A DNA stretch of 64,000 nt from Streptomyces sp. L2 (GTDB lineage Bacteria; Actinomycetota; Actinomycetes; Streptomycetales; Streptomycetaceae). The notes under the pieces were generated by a model. It searched no databases. It had not been told where the DNA came from and saw only the letters and a program-made list of their open reading frames with translations. Position 1 is the first letter of the stretch. Each line of letters starts with the position of its first letter. Shown here piece after piece: positions 16,518 to 29,900 of the stretch. The stretch is taken from positions 5,394,001 through 5,458,000 of the forward strand of contig NZ_QBDT01000001.1 of the NCBI RefSeq assembly GCF_004124325.1. Direction: 5' to 3'. A program made the position numbers and the translations under genes.

Positions 16518-16590
16518 GGGGCTATAGCTCAGTTGGTAGAGCGCCTGCATGGCATGCAGGAGGTCAGGAGTTCAATTCTCCTTAGCTCCA
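16518..16590 (+). tRNA. tRNA-Ala (anticodon GGC), copy 1
   Basis: A 73-nt cloverleaf. The acceptor GGGGCTA pairs with TAGCTCC (one G-T wobble), followed by the discriminator A. The D arm contains GCTC..TTGGTAGAGC. The anticodon stem CCTGC/GCAGG closes the loop ATGGCAT, giving anticodon GGC, which reads GCC alanine codons, heavily used in this genome. The T arm is AGGAGTTCAATTCTCCT. The CCA end is not encoded. An identical gene lies at 17534-17606. Confidence 0.96.
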
Positions 16591-16951
16591 CAGATCGGCA
16601 CTCGGTCGAGTTGCCAAAGATCGGTGATGAGAATCCCGTCCCCCAGGGGGCGGGATTCTCTGCTTTCCCCCTGCCGGCGACCGTCACCCGGCTCGGCCGG
16701 CTGATCGCTTCGGTCGGCTGATCGATCGGGCGGCCTTCGGCACACTGTTCCTCAGCCGGCTTGAGTCACTCGGGGCCCCGCGGGCGTATACCTCTGCGGA
16801 GGCGCTGTCGGTGAGCGTGTGGGTGCCGGCGCGGACGGCCGCGGTGGGGGCTGTGTCCGGACTGGTACTGAGGCGTCGCTGACCGTATCGGCCCGGCCGT
16901 GGCAGAATCAAACGGCCGGAAGGGGGCGCGTCCCGACGGGAGGGAGTAGCG
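16591..16951. other. Gap between tRNA-Ala copy 1 and zinc-ribbon gene
   Basis: Besides the terminator at 16629-16660 I see only a candidate promoter: CTGACC at 16879-16884, an 18-bp spacer, and CAGAAT at 16903-16908, 44 bp before the small zinc-ribbon gene. No coding sequence is convincing here. Confidence 0.45.
16629..16660 (+). terminator. Terminator after the first tRNA-Ala
   Basis: Inverted repeat with arms about 16629-16644 and 16646-16660 (GAGAATCCCG and CGGGATTCTC at the ends, C5/G5 near the tip, one bulged T), followed by TGCTTTCC. It begins 39 bp after the tRNA 3' end. Confidence 0.8.
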
Positions 16952-17533: not shown

Positions 17534-17606
17534 GGGGCTATAGCTCAGTTGGTAGAGCGCCTGCATGGCATGCAGGAGGTCAGGAGTTCAATTCTCCTTA
17601 GCTCCA
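17534..17606 (+). tRNA. tRNA-Ala (anticodon GGC), copy 2
   Basis: Identical over all 73 nt to the gene at 16518-16590, including the G-T wobble in the acceptor stem and the unencoded CCA. It has its own promoter (17465-17493) and its own terminator (17614-17649), so the two copies are independently expressed. Confidence 0.96.
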
Positions 17607-17613
17607 CAGAAGT

Positions 17614-17694: not shown

Positions 17695-17743
17695 ACACAC
17701 GCGTGGGGGCCGCCCGAGACCCGGGCGGCCCCCACGCGTGTGT
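17695..17743. terminator. Strong terminator for the leftward redox operon
   Basis: A perfect 21-bp inverted repeat (17695-17715 and 17723-17743) with a 7-nt loop, ending three bases from the stop of the NuoF-like gene at 17746. It can serve both strands. Confidence 0.87.
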
Positions 17744-17745
17744 GG

Positions 17746-19356
17746 TCAGCGGCCGAGGGCGCGGCGCCCGCGGCCCTGGGAGAGCACCGGCAGGTTCCGG
17801 GACGGCGCCTGCCCGCGCGTGTCCTCCTCGATGCGCAGGGCCAGCGCGGGACAGCGGCGCACCGCGCGCAGCGCCTTCGCCTCCGCGTAGCGCGGTACAT
17901 TGGCCTGGGCGACGGTCGGGAACCCGTCGGCGCCCAGCTCGAAGACCTCGGGCAGGATGTCGGCGCACAGCCCGTGGCCCCGGCACAGCGTCCAGTCGAC
18001 GTAGATCTTCTGGCGGCTGGAGCCGGTCTCCTCCGCCTCCGCGCCGCCGGGGATGCCCGTCGGGGCCCTGCCCCCCTCGAAGAGCGGCAGAACGCCCTCC
18101 ACGGGCCGTCCGCAGCCGTTCCCGAGGACATGGGCGGCCAGGTCGTCGGTGAACGCCTTGACGGTCGACTCCAGGAACATCGCGGAGCCGTCCGGGTGTG
18201 AACACGCCCCGCGCCGCTTCACGTTCTTCGCGACCTGCTTCAGCGCCTCCAGGGCGGCCGGGCCGCCGCCGTTCAGGATGTCCTCCATCCCGCGCGCGGC
18301 GGCGGGCAGTCCGAGGTAGCAGGGGCCGCACTGGCCCGCGCTCTCCTCGGCCAGCCACTGCGCCACCCGCAGCGACTCGCCCAGCGGACAGGTCTCCTGG
18401 CTGATCGGCAGGATGGCGCCCGCTCCGAGGGAACCGCCCACCGCGTCCAGCGAGTTGCGGGAGACGATCGCCTCGTTGACGGTCGCCGCGTCGATCCACT
18501 TGCCGTGGTAGCCGCCGGTGAGCACGCCCTGCGGCACCGGCGGGGCGCCGGCCAGCTGCAGCACGTAGCGCAGGGGGACACCCGTGGGGACCTCGATCAC
18601 CATCGGGCGGGCGACCGCCCCGGACACCGTGAGCATGACGGTGCCCGGTTCGTCGTACAGACCGGTGTTGCCGTAGCGCTCCGGGCCGATGCGGGCGGCG
18701 ATGGCCAGCTGTGCGAACGTCTCGGCGTTCGACAGGAGGGTGGGCGCGCCGCCGACGCCGTTGCGGGAGGCGCTGACCTTGCGGCCGGGCGGGATCGCCG
18801 GGCCGCCGTCGATCGAGCGGACCAGCGAGGAGGCGGCGCCGGTGACCATGCGCACCGGGTTGCGCTGCACCCACGCGCGGAGCGCCGATCTACGGGTGTT
18901 GCTCAGCCCGCGTTCGGCGAGCGCGGCCTCCATGGAGCGCTGGGTGGACTCCCGGGTGACCCCCACCACGAGCGTGCGGGCACCCAGGGCCTCGGCGCAC
19001 AGCAGCGCCCCGTCCAGGATGAGGTGCGGGGCACGGTTGATGAGCACCGTGTCCTTGCGGCAGGCCGGTTCGTCCTCGCTGCCGTTGACGACGACGACGG
19101 GCCGCACCCCGCGCTTGATCGCGGACTCCGCGACCGAGCGGAGCTTCTTGTGGAACGGGAAGCCGGCGCCGCCGCGGCCCTTGAGGTTGATGCCCTCGGC
19201 GAGTTGGGCCAGCTGCTCGCCCCCCAGCGGGTCCAGCGGCCCGTGCACCTTCAGGTGCATGGGCAGGTCGAGCCGTTCCACGAGGTCGAACCCGGAGGTG
19301 AGCTGCGGCAGGCCGACCACGCGCACCTCTGGGACATCGGGCAGGGCCTCGTTCAC
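17746..19356 (-). CDS. NuoF-like NADH dehydrogenase with fused 3-cysteine ferredoxin
   Basis: A 536-residue flavo-iron-sulfur protein. Residues about 55-245 carry the NuoF FMN/NADH-binding region (NLKGRGGAGFPFHKKL at 57-72, VNGSEDEPACRKD at 90-102, SNAETFAQL). An SLBB-like segment (about 240-290) follows. The 4Fe-4S region reads ESAGQCGPC (338-346) with Cys385. The first cysteine of the usual ESCGxCxPC is alanine here, and Cys323 might replace it. Residues 450-510 form a ferredoxin domain with three cysteines (Cys458, Cys464, Cys502 before Pro) as in [3Fe-4S] ferredoxins. The GTG start overlaps the stop of the membrane partner (GTGA) and has GGAGG upstream. Inferred role: passing electrons from NAD(P)H to the heme membrane protein at 19353. 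Confidence 0.85.
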   Translation of the reverse strand: MNEALPDVPEVRVVGLPQLTSGFDLVERLDLPMHLKVHGPLDPLGGEQLAQLAEGINLKGRGGAGFPFHKKLRSVAESAIKRGVRPVVVVNGSEDEPACRKDTVLINRAPHLILDGALLCAEALGARTLVVGVTRESTQRSMEAALAERGLSNTRRSALRAWVQRNPVRMVTGAASSLVRSIDGGPAIPPGRKVSASRNGVGGAPTLLSNAETFAQLAIAARIGPERYGNTGLYDEPGTVMLTVSGAVARPMVIEVPTGVPLRYVLQLAGAPPVPQGVLTGGYHGKWIDAATVNEAIVSRNSLDAVGGSLGAGAILPISQETCPLGESLRVAQWLAEESAGQCGPCYLGLPAAARGMEDILNGGGPAALEALKQVAKNVKRRGACSHPDGSAMFLESTVKAFTDDLAAHVLGNGCGRPVEGVLPLFEGGRAPTGIPGGAEAEETGSSRQKIYVDWTLCRGHGLCADILPEVFELGADGFPTVAQANVPRYAEAKALRAVRRCPALALRIEEDTRGQAPSRNLPVLSQGRGRRALGR

Positions 19357-20645
19357 CTGTAGCCTCCGGACGGCGTGTTCCAAGGTTCGCCCGAACCCGG
19401 AGCCTCGTAGGGGGCGCCGGGGGATGGTTCGGTGGCGGGACCGCTGTTGTACGTGTCACCCGAGTTGTACGTCCCGTAGAGGGTGTTCGTCTCACCTGTG
19501 TCGTACACATCACGTCCGCCGGGCCCGCCCGCGCCGGCAGTGCCGTAGGCCGGGATCGTGTAGCCCGTGTCCTGGAGCGGGTCGTACGCCGACGGCGGGG
19601 CCTCGCCGACCGGCGGCGGGGACGGGACCGGCCAGCTGCCCGAGGTGCTGGAGGGGCCGTCCACGCGCGGGACGGCCTGGGTGGCGGCCTGCGGGTCCGC
19701 CGGGAGGTCCATGCGGGCGGTCCGGCCAGCCGCGTACGGCTGCTGCCCCCGGCCCGGCGTGGACACGGCCCGGTAGGCGGCCGCGAAGCCGGACGCGGGC
19801 TCCGCGGCGGGGGTCGCGGGGGACTGGTAGAGCGGCATGCGGGAGGTCGCGGGGGCGGCGGGCGCCCGCTGCGGCTCCTGGCGGCTCCTGGAGCCCCCCA
19901 GGGAGGATTCCGCCACGCGCGCGCGTCCGGCGTCCAGATCGTCGAACTCCGGCCGCTCGGGGCCGCCCAGCAGGGCCATGAGCCGGTCGGCGACCTTGCG
20001 CTTGACCGGGCGGGGAGCGGAGCGCAGGGCGAGGCCGGCCATCACGCCCAGCAGCGACAGGCCGTAGAGGATCACGAAGACCGGCTTGGCGGTGCGGCCG
20101 GCGTACAGGCCGTGCACCAGGGCCGCGCACCAGGCCGGGTAGGCGAGCATGTGCATGGCCCGCCAGCGCGCCGCGACGGGCGCCGGTGCGGCGAAGTTGC
20201 TGCGCAGGGCGCCGGTGACACCCACGAAGATCATCAGCAGGCCGGCGAGCGAACCCAGCCCGATCAGGCCGCCGATGCCGGTGAAGCCGAGAGAGAACGG
20301 GACGATCGCGCCGATCACGCGCGTGTGGTCGAGGGCGATCTTCGTGGTGATGTGCAGCAGCAGGAACGCGATCGAGGCGACCGCGGTCGTCCGGTGCACC
20401 GCCTGGCCGATGATCCGCTGGCGGATGTCGAGGAGGATCCGGTCCTGCGCGACCAGACCCCAGATCACCGAGCAGCTGAGCGAGACGAGGGACAGCACGC
20501 CGGCGCCGAAGTTCAGGAACTCACGGAACTGGCTGCCTCCGACCAGCACGATTACGGGTATCAGCAACAGGACGACAGCGGTCGCCACCCCATAGGCCGA
20601 CCGGCCCGGTTTGGGTAGCGAACTGTTACTACGACGAGGGTTCAT
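19353..20645 (-). CDS. Ferric-reductase-like heme membrane protein
   Basis: A 430-residue protein with about six transmembrane helices in residues 17-207. Histidines occur in the arrangement of ferric reductase/NADPH oxidase cores: His84 and His98 in one helix (13 residues between) and His165 and His178 in another (12 between), suited to binding two b hemes across the membrane. It lacks the fused FAD/NADH domain of those enzymes; the NuoF-like protein encoded next, with overlapping start, may supply that function. Residues 210-430 are a cytoplasmic low-complexity tail rich in Pro, Ser, Thr and Tyr (LYGTYNSGDTYNSGP). The ATG has GGAG eight bases upstream. The terminal electron acceptor is unknown. 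Confidence 0.83.
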   Translation of the reverse strand: MNPRRSNSSLPKPGRSAYGVATAVVLLLIPVIVLVGGSQFREFLNFGAGVLSLVSLSCSVIWGLVAQDRILLDIRQRIIGQAVHRTTAVASIAFLLLHITTKIALDHTRVIGAIVPFSLGFTGIGGLIGLGSLAGLLMIFVGVTGALRSNFAAPAPVAARWRAMHMLAYPAWCAALVHGLYAGRTAKPVFVILYGLSLLGVMAGLALRSAPRPVKRKVADRLMALLGGPERPEFDDLDAGRARVAESSLGGSRSRQEPQRAPAAPATSRMPLYQSPATPAAEPASGFAAAYRAVSTPGRGQQPYAAGRTARMDLPADPQAATQAVPRVDGPSSTSGSWPVPSPPPVGEAPPSAYDPLQDTGYTIPAYGTAGAGGPGGRDVYDTGETNTLYGTYNSGDTYNSGPATEPSPGAPYEAPGSGEPWNTPSGGYR

Positions 20646-20886
20646 GGGGGCAACTCCGAGCAGTTTCGGGAAAGCGGTCCCGCTGCCGAACTCTAAGGGG
20701 CGCCATACTGATCAGTACGGGGTTTGAGTTATTGCACTGTTATCAACGGACAATGTGATCGGGGCGATGTCCCCTTAGCGGCTGTTACGCGAAGTAATCA
20801 CTGACCTTGGTTCAGTCCATGTTCTGGATCGATGGCATGTCCACATGCCATACGGAAGCGCGTCGCGGCTTGCTCAAGGGCTGCGG

Positions 20887-26968: not shown

Positions 26969-29900
26969 CCGACGAACCGCCCCCGGCCCCTGCGGCAGCC
27001 GACAGGCCCGGCCGCCATCCGGTGTCCAACGGTCCTGCGGCAGCTGGCCGGCCCGGCGGTCGTCCGGTGTCCAACGGTCCTGCGGCAGCTGGCTGGCCCG
27101 GCGGTCGTCCGGTGTCCAACGGTCTTGCGGCAGCTGGCTGGCCCGGCGGCCGTCCGGTGTCCAACGGTCTTGCGGCAGCTGGCTGGCCCGGCGGCCGTCC
27201 GGTGTCCAACGGTCTTGCGGCAGCTGGCTGGCCCGGCGGCCGTCCGGTGCCCAACGGTCTTGCGGCAGCTGGCTGGCCCGGCGGCCGTCCGGTGTCCAAC
27301 ACCCCAGCGGCAGCTGGCCGCCGTCCGATGCTCACCGCCCTTGCGGCAGGTAGGTGGCCTGGCCGTCGACCGACGTCCACTGCCCCTGCGGCAGGCGGCC
27401 GGCCCGGCCCTCGACCGACGTCCACTGTCCCGCCACGGCGCAGGGCCGACCGTGCCCCGGAGCGAGGCGTCTCCTCACGGCGTGCGCTGACCCCTGCCCC
27501 GCCGGCACGCCCCTCTCGTCGTAGGTCGGGGCACTCCGGTTCCGCGTCCGCTGGGCCGGTGCCTCTCACCTCCGTGCTCCGTCGATCGGCGCGCAGAGCC
27601 GCTACTACCCCTCGGGAGCCCTCCCCGGCTCCGGGCCGGACCGTGCCCTCCAGCCCGTGGGGGTGTGCGACCGTAGGTCGCACGGCCACAGCGTCCTCGT
27701 CCGGGAACGTGGAAGCCGGGCGAGGAACGGCCCCCGTCGGCGCGCCGGTTCGTGGTGGCGCGGTGGGCGAGGGGGGCGCCTGCCCGCCGGCCGCCTCCGC
27801 GCGCAGCGCGGTGCATGCGGCTTCCGGTCACCGGCGGGGGGACGCTCATCCCCGGCAGGAGGGGCCGGTGGATCTGCGGCTGGTGCCGGCCGCGCTCGCG
27901 GTGTGGGGGACGGCGGCTCTCGTCCTGGTCCTGCCGCCCGGCTGGGCGATCGGGATCACCGGGGTCTGCCTGGTCGCCGGTGTGGTGCTGTTGTCGGCCG
28001 GGCGGCCGGGGCGGGTCCGGGCGCGGCTCGGGCGGGCGCGGGCTCCGGTGGCGGCCGTCCTGCTGTGTGTCGCCGCGGCCGCCGCCTCCGCCGGGTTGCA
28101 CGGGGCGGACGTGCGGCGCGGGCCGGTGCCGGAGCTGGCGCGCCGGTTCGCGACCGTGACCGCCGAGGTAGAGCTGAGCGGCGATCCCTGGCTGAGCAGA
28201 CCGCGCGTACGCGGCGATCACGCGGCACCGGTGGCGGTGCTGGTCCGCGGGGAGGTACGGGAGGTCGAGCAGCGCGACGGGACGGCGGTGCGCACCCGCA
28301 GTCCGGTGCTGGTCGTGGTCGACGCCGAAGTGCCGGCGCCACCTGGAGCCGGGGCTCGGGAAGCGCCGGAACCGGGCGCGCGCGGTGGGCGGTCCGGCTG
28401 GCTCGGGCTGCTGCCGTCCACCCGGCTCCGGGTGACCGGACGGCTGGCTCCCGCCCTGGCCGCTGGTGACCGGACCGCCGCGGTGCTGCGCGTGCGGAAG
28501 CGCCCGGCGCCGGAGATCGTCGCCGGGCCGAGCGGACCCCAGCGGCTGGCGGGGCGGCTCCGGGCCGGACTGCGGGAAGCGACCGCGGGACTTCCGGCGG
28601 ACGCGCGGGCACTGCTTCCCGGACTGGTCGTCGGGGACACCTCACGGATCACGCCGGACCTGGACGACGCCTTCAAGGAGACGGACCTGGCGCACACCCT
28701 CGCCGTCTCCGGCAGCAACCTCACGATCCTGCTCGCCCTGCTCATCGGGCCGCCCGGCCTGGCCCAGCGGGCCGAGCGCCGCGGCCTCGCCCCGCGCCTC
28801 GGACTCTCCCTGCGGGCGACCGCCCTGCTCGCCGCGGTGCTGACCCTGGGCTTCGTCCTCGTGTGCCGGCCCGATCCCAGCGTGCTGCGCGCCGCGGCCT
28901 GCGGCGCCGTCGCCCTGCTCGCCCTCGCCACCGGGCGCCGCAGATCCCTGATCCCGGCGCTGGCCGCCGCCGTCCTGCTGCTGGTGCTGTACGACCCGTG
29001 GCTGGCCCGCGGCTACGGCTTCCTGCTCTCCGTGCTGGCCACCGGCGCACTGCTCGTGGTGGCGCCCGGGTGGAGCGAGGCGCTGCGGCGACGACGGGTT
29101 CCCGCGCGGCTCGCCGAGGCGCTGGGTGCCGCTGCCGCCGCGCAGGCGTGCTGTGCGCCGGTCGTGGCGGTGCTGTCGGCTCGGGTGAGCCTGGTCGCGG
29201 TGCCCTGCAACCTGCTGGCCGAGATCGCGGTGGCCCCGGCCACGGTGCTCGGGTTCGCGGCGCTCGCGGTGGCCCCGGCGGCCATGCCCGTGGCCAAGGC
29301 GCTGGCCTGGTGCGCGGGTTGGCCCGCCGCCTGGATCGCGAAGGTCGCCCGCACCGGGGCCGCGCTGCCCGGCGCCGGAGTGGACTGGCCGGGCAGCTGG
29401 GCGGGGGCGCTGCTGCTCGTGGCGGTCACCGCGGTGGCCGCCCTGGCCGGACGGTGGCTGCTGCGGCACCCGTGGTGGTGCGCGGCCCTCGGGGTGCTGC
29501 TCCTGCTGGTCGTGGTCCGGCCGGTCCCCCTGACCCGGGTCGTCACGGGGTGGCCGCCGCCCGGCTGGCGGTTCGCGATGTGCGACGTCGGACAGGGCGA
29601 CGCGACCGTGCTGGCCGCGGGCCAGGGTGCCGGGGTGGTCGTGGACGCCGGACCCGATCCGGAACTCGTCGACCGCTGTCTGCGGGAACTGGGAGTCACC
29701 CGCATTCCGCTCCTCGTCCTCACCCACTTCCACGCCGACCACGTCGCCGGCCTGACCGGTGTGCTGCGGGGCCGCACGGTCGCCGCGATCGAGACCACCG
29801 GATTCGAGGAGCCGGCGCAGGAGGCCGAGTTCGTCGGAAAGGAGGCCGCCGCACGGCACATCCCGGTCAGCAGGGCCGTAGCGGGGGAGGAACAGCGCAC

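Follow-up and report, generated by a model that had tools for sequence, protein, structure and literature searches.

A pair of adjacent genes on the minus strand of Streptomyces sp. L2 encodes a putative six-helix membrane cytochrome and a NuoF-like flavoprotein with a fused ferredoxin. The pair lies in a 64,000-nucleotide stretch of contig NZ_QBDT01000001.1 (positions 5,394,001 to 5,458,000; the window) of an 8.07 Mb genome (G000; L and G numbers denote loci and genomes). We consider it rather likely that the two proteins constitute a transmembrane NADH oxidoreductase, which would pass electrons via two haems to an acceptor on the outer face. Judged by its relatives, the pair is the form taken in streptomycetes by an actinobacterial module of ApbE, an MsrQ-like cytochrome, NuoF and a ferredoxin. 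Streptomyces, which are aerobic, live surrounded by redox-active secondary metabolites, and to our knowledge few routes are known by which their cytosolic electrons reach the cell surface. If our reading is true, the pair is a conserved route of this kind, and a recycled complex I subunit can drive the haem core of NOX and MsrQ proteins.

The gene pair

19353..20645, minus strand: membrane cytochrome gene; 430 aa, ATG start; six-transmembrane (six-TM) FRD/MsrQ-like core and low-complexity tail
17746..19356, minus strand: gene for NuoF-like flavoprotein that carries a fused ferredoxin; 536 aa from the GTG start
19353..19356, minus strand: GTGA stop/start overlap of both genes, read from the sequence

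Through the GTGA overlap the two genes are likely to be translationally coupled, as an earlier reading of the DNA (the sequence-only reading) had proposed. The flavoprotein frame can also be opened at a TTG (open reading frame (ORF) 17746-19383, 545 aa). We replaced this earlier start, TTG 19383, by GTG 19356, because the GTG overlaps with the membrane gene's TGA stop, is preceded by a GGAGG 6 nt upstream and yields an N-terminus, MNEALPDVPEVRVVG, that is common to close relatives in the alignment. The frames of L072, L076 and L077 open at the same point. GTG 19356 thus appears to be the better start and TTG 19383 the less likely one.

Membrane cytochrome

19941..20645, minus strand: six-helix core, residues 1-235, from the predicted structure
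20394-20396, 20352-20354, 20151-20153 and 20112-20114, minus strand: codons of the putative haem ligands H84, H98, H165 and H178, respectively
19356..19940, minus strand: C-terminal tail, residues 236-430; low complexity, predicted to be cytosolic from tail alignment and loop charges

The AlphaFold 2 (AF2) model of the membrane protein (pLDDT 88.4, pTM 0.81) contains six helical segments long enough to span the membrane, with a kink in the fifth, and agrees with the six helices described before. H84 and H98 are situated on the third segment, and H165 and H178 on the fifth. These are exactly the histidines that the sequence-only reading had singled out, and none of the four varies across the 33 rows (the window and 32 loci). 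The sole further histidine within residues 1-235, H107, is not conserved. With 14 and 13 residues, the spacing of the two pairs equals that of the SpNOX haem ligands, in keeping with the NOX/ferric-reductase spacing claimed earlier, and structure comparison returns SpNOX and STEAP as the closest folds. We infer that two haems are bound, an inner one by H84/H165 and an outer one by H98/H178.

Domain scans of the membrane protein found no NAD domain and, as had been stated, no flavin domain, and returned only sub-threshold matches to DUF4405 (E 0.011; 16.6 bits against a cut-off of 26.7) and PF01794 (12.1 bits against 28). PF01794 is matched at E<=1 by 27 of 38 family members, the best at 1.5e-11. 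No Protein Data Bank (PDB) chain was matched by a profile built from the membrane family. Relatives are named in public records 'cytochrome b/b6 domain-containing protein' and 'DMSO/TMAO reductase YedYZ heme-binding membrane subunit', among others. The end of the tail is alike in seven aligned Streptomyces-type proteins (GEPW..P.G).

The closest solved fold is that of SpNOX, a bacterial NOX described in excerpts of the literature as making reactive oxygen species, and the outer loops of our model are predicted to be short. Both points would suit a NOX-like oxidase that forms superoxide or H2O2 from O2 at its outer haem, which we consider quite unlikely. No histidine other than the four ligands is invariant, and the O2 centre of other NOX enzymes is given in sections of one paper as two histidines, an arginine and a haem propionate (PMC11564096). 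This argument is weak, since those histidines may include a ligand and SpNOX is also described there as being without the site; in the same sections the SpNOX authors leave room for a physiological acceptor other than O2 (PMC11564096). A superoxide-generating role is possible, its positive support ending with the fold.

Flavoprotein and ferredoxin

18706..19188, minus strand: Complex1_51K domain (flavin mononucleotide (FMN)/NADH); from Pfam, renumbered from the TTG to the GTG start
18388-18390, minus strand: codon of C323, just upstream of the NADH_4Fe-4S region; also invariant
18130..18369, minus strand: NADH_4Fe-4S region with altered N3 site; C343, C346 and C385 kept, first Cys replaced by Ala
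17830..18006, minus strand: Fer4_15 ferredoxin domain; three Cys, CRGHGLC ... CP

In the 545-aa (TTG) version, Pfam recognises Complex1_51K (1.8e-29), NADH_4Fe-4S (7.8e-17), Fer4_15 (6.6e-15) and SLBB (8.1e-07) domains. Together with the CRGHGLC ... CP motif, they confirm the earlier description of a NuoF-like flavoprotein with a fused three-cysteine ferredoxin. The structures matched by the AF2 model of the flavoprotein (pLDDT 87.0) are NADH modules from bifurcating enzymes and from complex I.

The N3 motif reads ESAGQCGPC where canonical rows have ESCGKCTPC, so that the first of the four cysteines is replaced. This position is occupied by A, S or T in all 31 aligned rows, in which C323, C343, C346 and C385 are invariant. 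The usual N3 cluster therefore cannot be assumed, and the iron-sulphur (Fe-S) path is not that of complex I. Of 115 NuoF rows, 60 (the family rows) lack a CxxCxxC pattern, which the remaining 55 possess. Each of the 60 has a membrane gene or ferredoxin recognised alongside (pattern and profile); in the flanking DNA examined of the 55, the profile recognised neither. By this pattern, the altered N3 site is common to the wider family, beyond the streptomycete form. We rejected the identity of a complex I subunit for the flavoprotein, which stays well below the NCBIfam cut-offs (nuoF_fam, 161.6 against 558.65 bits) and is missing the N3 cysteine. Public records name its relatives 'NADH-quinone oxidoreductase subunit NuoF family protein', among others.

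Ferredoxins of the [3Fe-4S] type have three ligand cysteines in the arrangement CxxXxxC ... CP, with a residue other than cysteine at X. The fused domain has a histidine where the fourth cysteine could be (CRGHGLC ... RRCP), and by its three cysteines it is classed as [3Fe-4S]-type. It matches six PDB sequences, the best being 6mcw, a CYP51-ferredoxin fusion, followed by five small ferredoxins.

Linkage of the two genes

We searched the same 197 genomes of the class twice, for relatives of the membrane protein and for NuoF-like proteins (complex I included), and found matches in 67 and 185 genomes, respectively. Linkage required a NuoF match within 2.5 kb on the same strand, and the linkage counts are lower bounds. 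NuoF adjoins the membrane gene in at least 56 of the 67 genomes, ApbE in at least 42 and either of them in at least 65; counted by rows, the figures are at least 60 of 75 for NuoF and at least 44 of 75 for ApbE. The sequence-only reading had asked whether homologues are routinely unlinked; these counts answer that they are linked, with exceptions. Among the exceptions are L065 and L166, where relatives of the membrane protein occur without NuoF.

The membrane protein is present in 37 of 61 genomes of the family, and its gene in 13 of 16 genomes of the genus. Where the latter is absent in the genus, broken NuoF pieces persist beside leuS in L164, which fits joint loss, and G089 and G153 have NuoF matches only at E 1e-31 to 1e-33, which we take for complex I.

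A profile was applied to 22 further stretches and found the membrane gene in 9 of the 10 that have ApbE beside NuoF (one of the nine, L181, is already included in the genome-wide count). Ten of the 21 further stretches with NuoF are without a membrane gene. L176 and L180 stop at a contig end; in genomes G177 and G157, to which L178 and L179 belong, the half with ApbE and the membrane gene is found on a separate contig. L165 has ApbE, NuoF and ferredoxin only, L177 has NuoF alone, and L183-L186 hold a NuoF type without membrane partner. No fusion of membrane and NuoF genes was recognised among the loci read, for which no systematic search was made. From their linkage, we conclude that the genes of the membrane cytochrome and the flavoprotein belong together.

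NuoF-ferredoxin is found without a recognised membrane gene in Mycobacterium and Nocardia rows and in a paralogue of the same genome (L008), and the ferredoxin domain has a P450-ferredoxin fusion as its best PDB match. A soluble NADH-ferredoxin reductase, for example one serving P450s, might accordingly stand beside an unrelated membrane protein by chance. Given linkage over many families, a kept gene order, the GTGA overlap and the joint decay in L164, we find this hardly credible. The occurrence of NuoF-ferredoxin elsewhere without the membrane gene does indicate that this half is used in more than one setting: it would be an NADH-to-ferredoxin unit whose partner here is the membrane cytochrome.

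The paralogous NuoF-like gene (L008:9845-11768; G000:C1:7139844-7141767) has 37% identity and a separate three-Cys ferredoxin, ahead of which lies a repetitive, GC-rich spacer. Rieske oxygenase, acyl-CoA dehydrogenase-like and transporter genes, named by eye, are its neighbours.

ApbE and the fused-ferredoxin clade

Outside the fused-ferredoxin families, the usual gene order is ApbE, membrane cytochrome, NuoF and a separate ferredoxin, and a response regulator and a histidine kinase accompany the module in several loci. In this group ApbE neighbours the membrane gene in at least 42 of 48 genomes, and in none of 16 same-genus rows does it lie within 8 kb of it. We calculated a maximum-likelihood tree of 67 NuoF rows, made up of the 60 family rows and seven of the 55 others. 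All 25 fused-ferredoxin rows fall into one clade (support 100/99), which comprises Streptomyces and other same-genus rows, Wenjunlia, Streptosporangiaceae with Herbidospora, and families f17 and f37. No ApbE was found in the flanking DNA examined of these 25 rows; in two of them (L080 and L082) the membrane gene is not seen, the DNA stopping a few hundred bases upstream. Because ApbE-bearing rows branch around the clade, ApbE was probably lost in it, with several nearby forks poorly supported and the bootstrap not quite settled. Elsewhere in the tree, L058, L073 and the Chloroflexi row L097 have the membrane gene with neither ApbE nor the fusion.

The frequent position of ApbE beside the membrane gene, and sections of an eLife 2021 paper that group MsrQ-like and NuoF proteins with flavinylation clusters (PMC8238504), would be expected if electrons passed to a covalently flavinylated protein outside the cell. 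We regard such ApbE-type extracytosolic flavinylation as improbable for the window pair. Besides the lack of a nearby ApbE in the same-genus rows, no FMN_bind match lies within 5 kb of any module locus (listings compared by eye). The module ApbE (24 loci, among L047-L057, L066-L075 and L090-L100) has an N-terminal hydrophobic segment in none of the 23 loci testable by a simple hydropathy scan and looks cytosolic, unlike the extracytosolic systems in the relevant sections of that paper (PMC8238504). ApbE and FMN_bind matches of the window's genome lie at C1:6510293-6513638, about 1.1 Mb from the pair; one further ApbE match is unplaced. A classical FMN_bind/ApbE system was rejected at the locus, since neither gene is near.

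The distant flavinylation-type cluster (G000:C1:6510293-6515100) contains ApbE, three FMN_bind matches and two PF01794 proteins of its own. A simple pattern finds the motif HHxxDPx[TS]G in 11 of 16 module ApbE proteins. No flavinylation-like [S/T]GA[S/T] motif occurs in the membrane or NuoF proteins of loci that possess a membrane gene, except for three strays in L061, L069 and L099, which we set aside. In L048, L054, L057 and L069, small ORFs lie directly upstream of the module ApbE or overlap its frame; they show a seemingly hydrophobic segment and a tail rich in Ser, Thr and Gly, and their product is a possible target or carrier.

In loci of the Streptosporangiaceae type, DUF4142 and DUF1996 genes often precede the pair. 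Both are upstream in L059, L060, L078 and L087 and further upstream in L064; L061 has DUF1996 alone, and L086 has DUF4142 downstream. L078 has a gene for an extracytoplasmic function (ECF) sigma factor, and related genes occur in L059, L060 and L061. We rejected the DUF1996 and DUF4142 proteins as acceptors. The only paper found with DUF1996 in its title is on fungal vacuolar proteins, from which no function can be derived here, and both DUF1996 matches of G000 are distant from the pair.

Proposed electron pathway

Our computations establish the gene pair, the fold, the invariant ligands, the linkage and the clade; cofactors, complex formation, electron direction and acceptor are assigned here by analogy with the protein families. 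The NuoF-like domain would oxidise NADH at FMN in the cytosol, and electrons would pass singly through the modified Fe-S site to the fused [3Fe-4S]-type ferredoxin. From there they would reach the inner haem (H84/H165), the outer haem (H98/H178) and finally an acceptor on the outer face. The long, predicted cytosolic tail of the membrane protein may hold the flavoprotein. Of the route suggested by the sequence-only reading, the link of an NADH-side flavoprotein/ferredoxin to a bis-haem core stands, and the Fe-S step, with a ligand cysteine missing in 31 of 31 rows, cannot be taken for the usual N3 cluster. As anatomy, its comparison with a split ferric reductase/NADPH oxidase assembled from parts of complex I is fair: the flavoprotein/ferredoxin is linked to an FRD/NOX-type core that has no flavin domain of its own.

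With a NuoF-like donor half, the pair could also be a non-proton-pumping NADH:menaquinone oxidoreductase. Its haems would then deliver electrons to menaquinone in the membrane, like MsrQ, which works with quinone, perhaps in reverse. We hold this to be unlikely; by argument rather than by result, a ferredoxin donor needs no two transmembrane-stacked haems to reach quinone. For the transmembrane oxidoreductase, the most likely acceptor is not O2 but an extracytoplasmic protein or a small redox compound, in the form of an oxidised protein, a metal or a flavin.

More tentatively, with slightly less than even confidence, we propose a third power source for the NOX/ferric-reductase haem core, next to the FNR-type flavin adenine dinucleotide (FAD) domain and quinol: a complex I-derived NuoF whose N3 site has been remodelled and which brings a [3Fe-4S] relay of its own. 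The pair would then represent an uncharacterised, non-flavinylated NADH electron export that is widespread in Streptomyces-type genomes.

Comparison with known systems

The composition had been put forward as a candidate for an undescribed system. Sections of the eLife 2021 paper do mention it, with 31 MsrQ-like gene clusters containing a NuoF-like protein, NAD(P)H as the inferred donor for at least some and broad conservation of MsrQ-like clusters in Actinobacteria (PMC8238504). No characterised NuoF/MsrQ-like pair was found in the open-licence papers searched. The composition is thus known in passing, and, set against those sections, the streptomycete form with fused ferredoxin and no ApbE is new. 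Both share a six-TM protein, two predicted haem sites and a NuoF-like partner, the six-TM protein being PF01794-type in those clusters and a sub-threshold PF01794 match in the window; the streptomycete pair differs in its fused ferredoxin and in having no ApbE/FMN_bind neighbour. It separates the NuoF/MsrQ-like module from ApbE flavinylation, two subjects treated together in the sections concerned (PMC8238504).

Like SpNOX and eukaryotic NOX/DUOX, as excerpts describe them, the pair combines six TM helices and two histidine pairs (14 and 13 apart in SpNOX) with a predicted flow of NAD(P)H electrons to the outer face. NOX proteins have a fused FAD/NADPH dehydrogenase domain, whereas the proposed donor here is a separate NuoF-type flavoprotein with ferredoxin. 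In partial descriptions, MsrPQ/YedYZ likewise has a stand-alone haem membrane subunit with a separate donor. However, the scan of eight neighbouring ORFs found no MsrP-like gene (molybdopterin reductase), and the proposed donor is NuoF-ferredoxin, not quinone or Fre. NuoF of complex I, HydB and NfnB share the fold, the FMN and NADH domain, SLBB and the NADH_4Fe-4S region. They differ in the first N3 cysteine, missing here, and in the fused C-terminal ferredoxin, and no complex I gene is among the same eight neighbours. Finally, DUF4405 cytochromes, as portrayed in sections of an mSystems 2024 paper, resemble the membrane protein in six TM helices, four central histidines and weak Pfam similarity, and a purified member gave a haem b spectrum (PMC11334425). 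The window protein is below the DUF4405 cut-off, and the gene contexts in those sections are other ones (PMC11334425).

Operon boundaries and other features of the window

17695..17743, minus strand: 22-bp perfect inverted repeat with 5-nt loop, directly after the flavoprotein stop; read from the sequence
20643..20725, minus strand: conserved upstream block in the gap toward the divergent leuS; DNA alignment of seven Streptomyces-type loci

The inverted repeat is a probable terminator, and with it the pair has the appearance of a self-contained operon of two genes; a scan for T-run terminators did not have the repeat among its matches. The upstream block is a probable promoter/leader, in which a scan for sigma-70-like sites found no match. 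A divergent leuS gene (LeuRS domains) lies opposite the minus-strand pair and adjoins it in seven of eight same-genus module loci read, the exception being L064.

Elsewhere in the window, a tandem array of 45-bp units (15 codons each, should they be in frame) occupies 26989-27431 and directly follows a gene whose product has SLBB and helix-hairpin-helix domains; 26989-27318 holds 7.3 copies at 94%. Two tRNA-Ala(GGC) genes lie about 1 kb apart on the plus strand, at 16518-16591 and 17534-17607.

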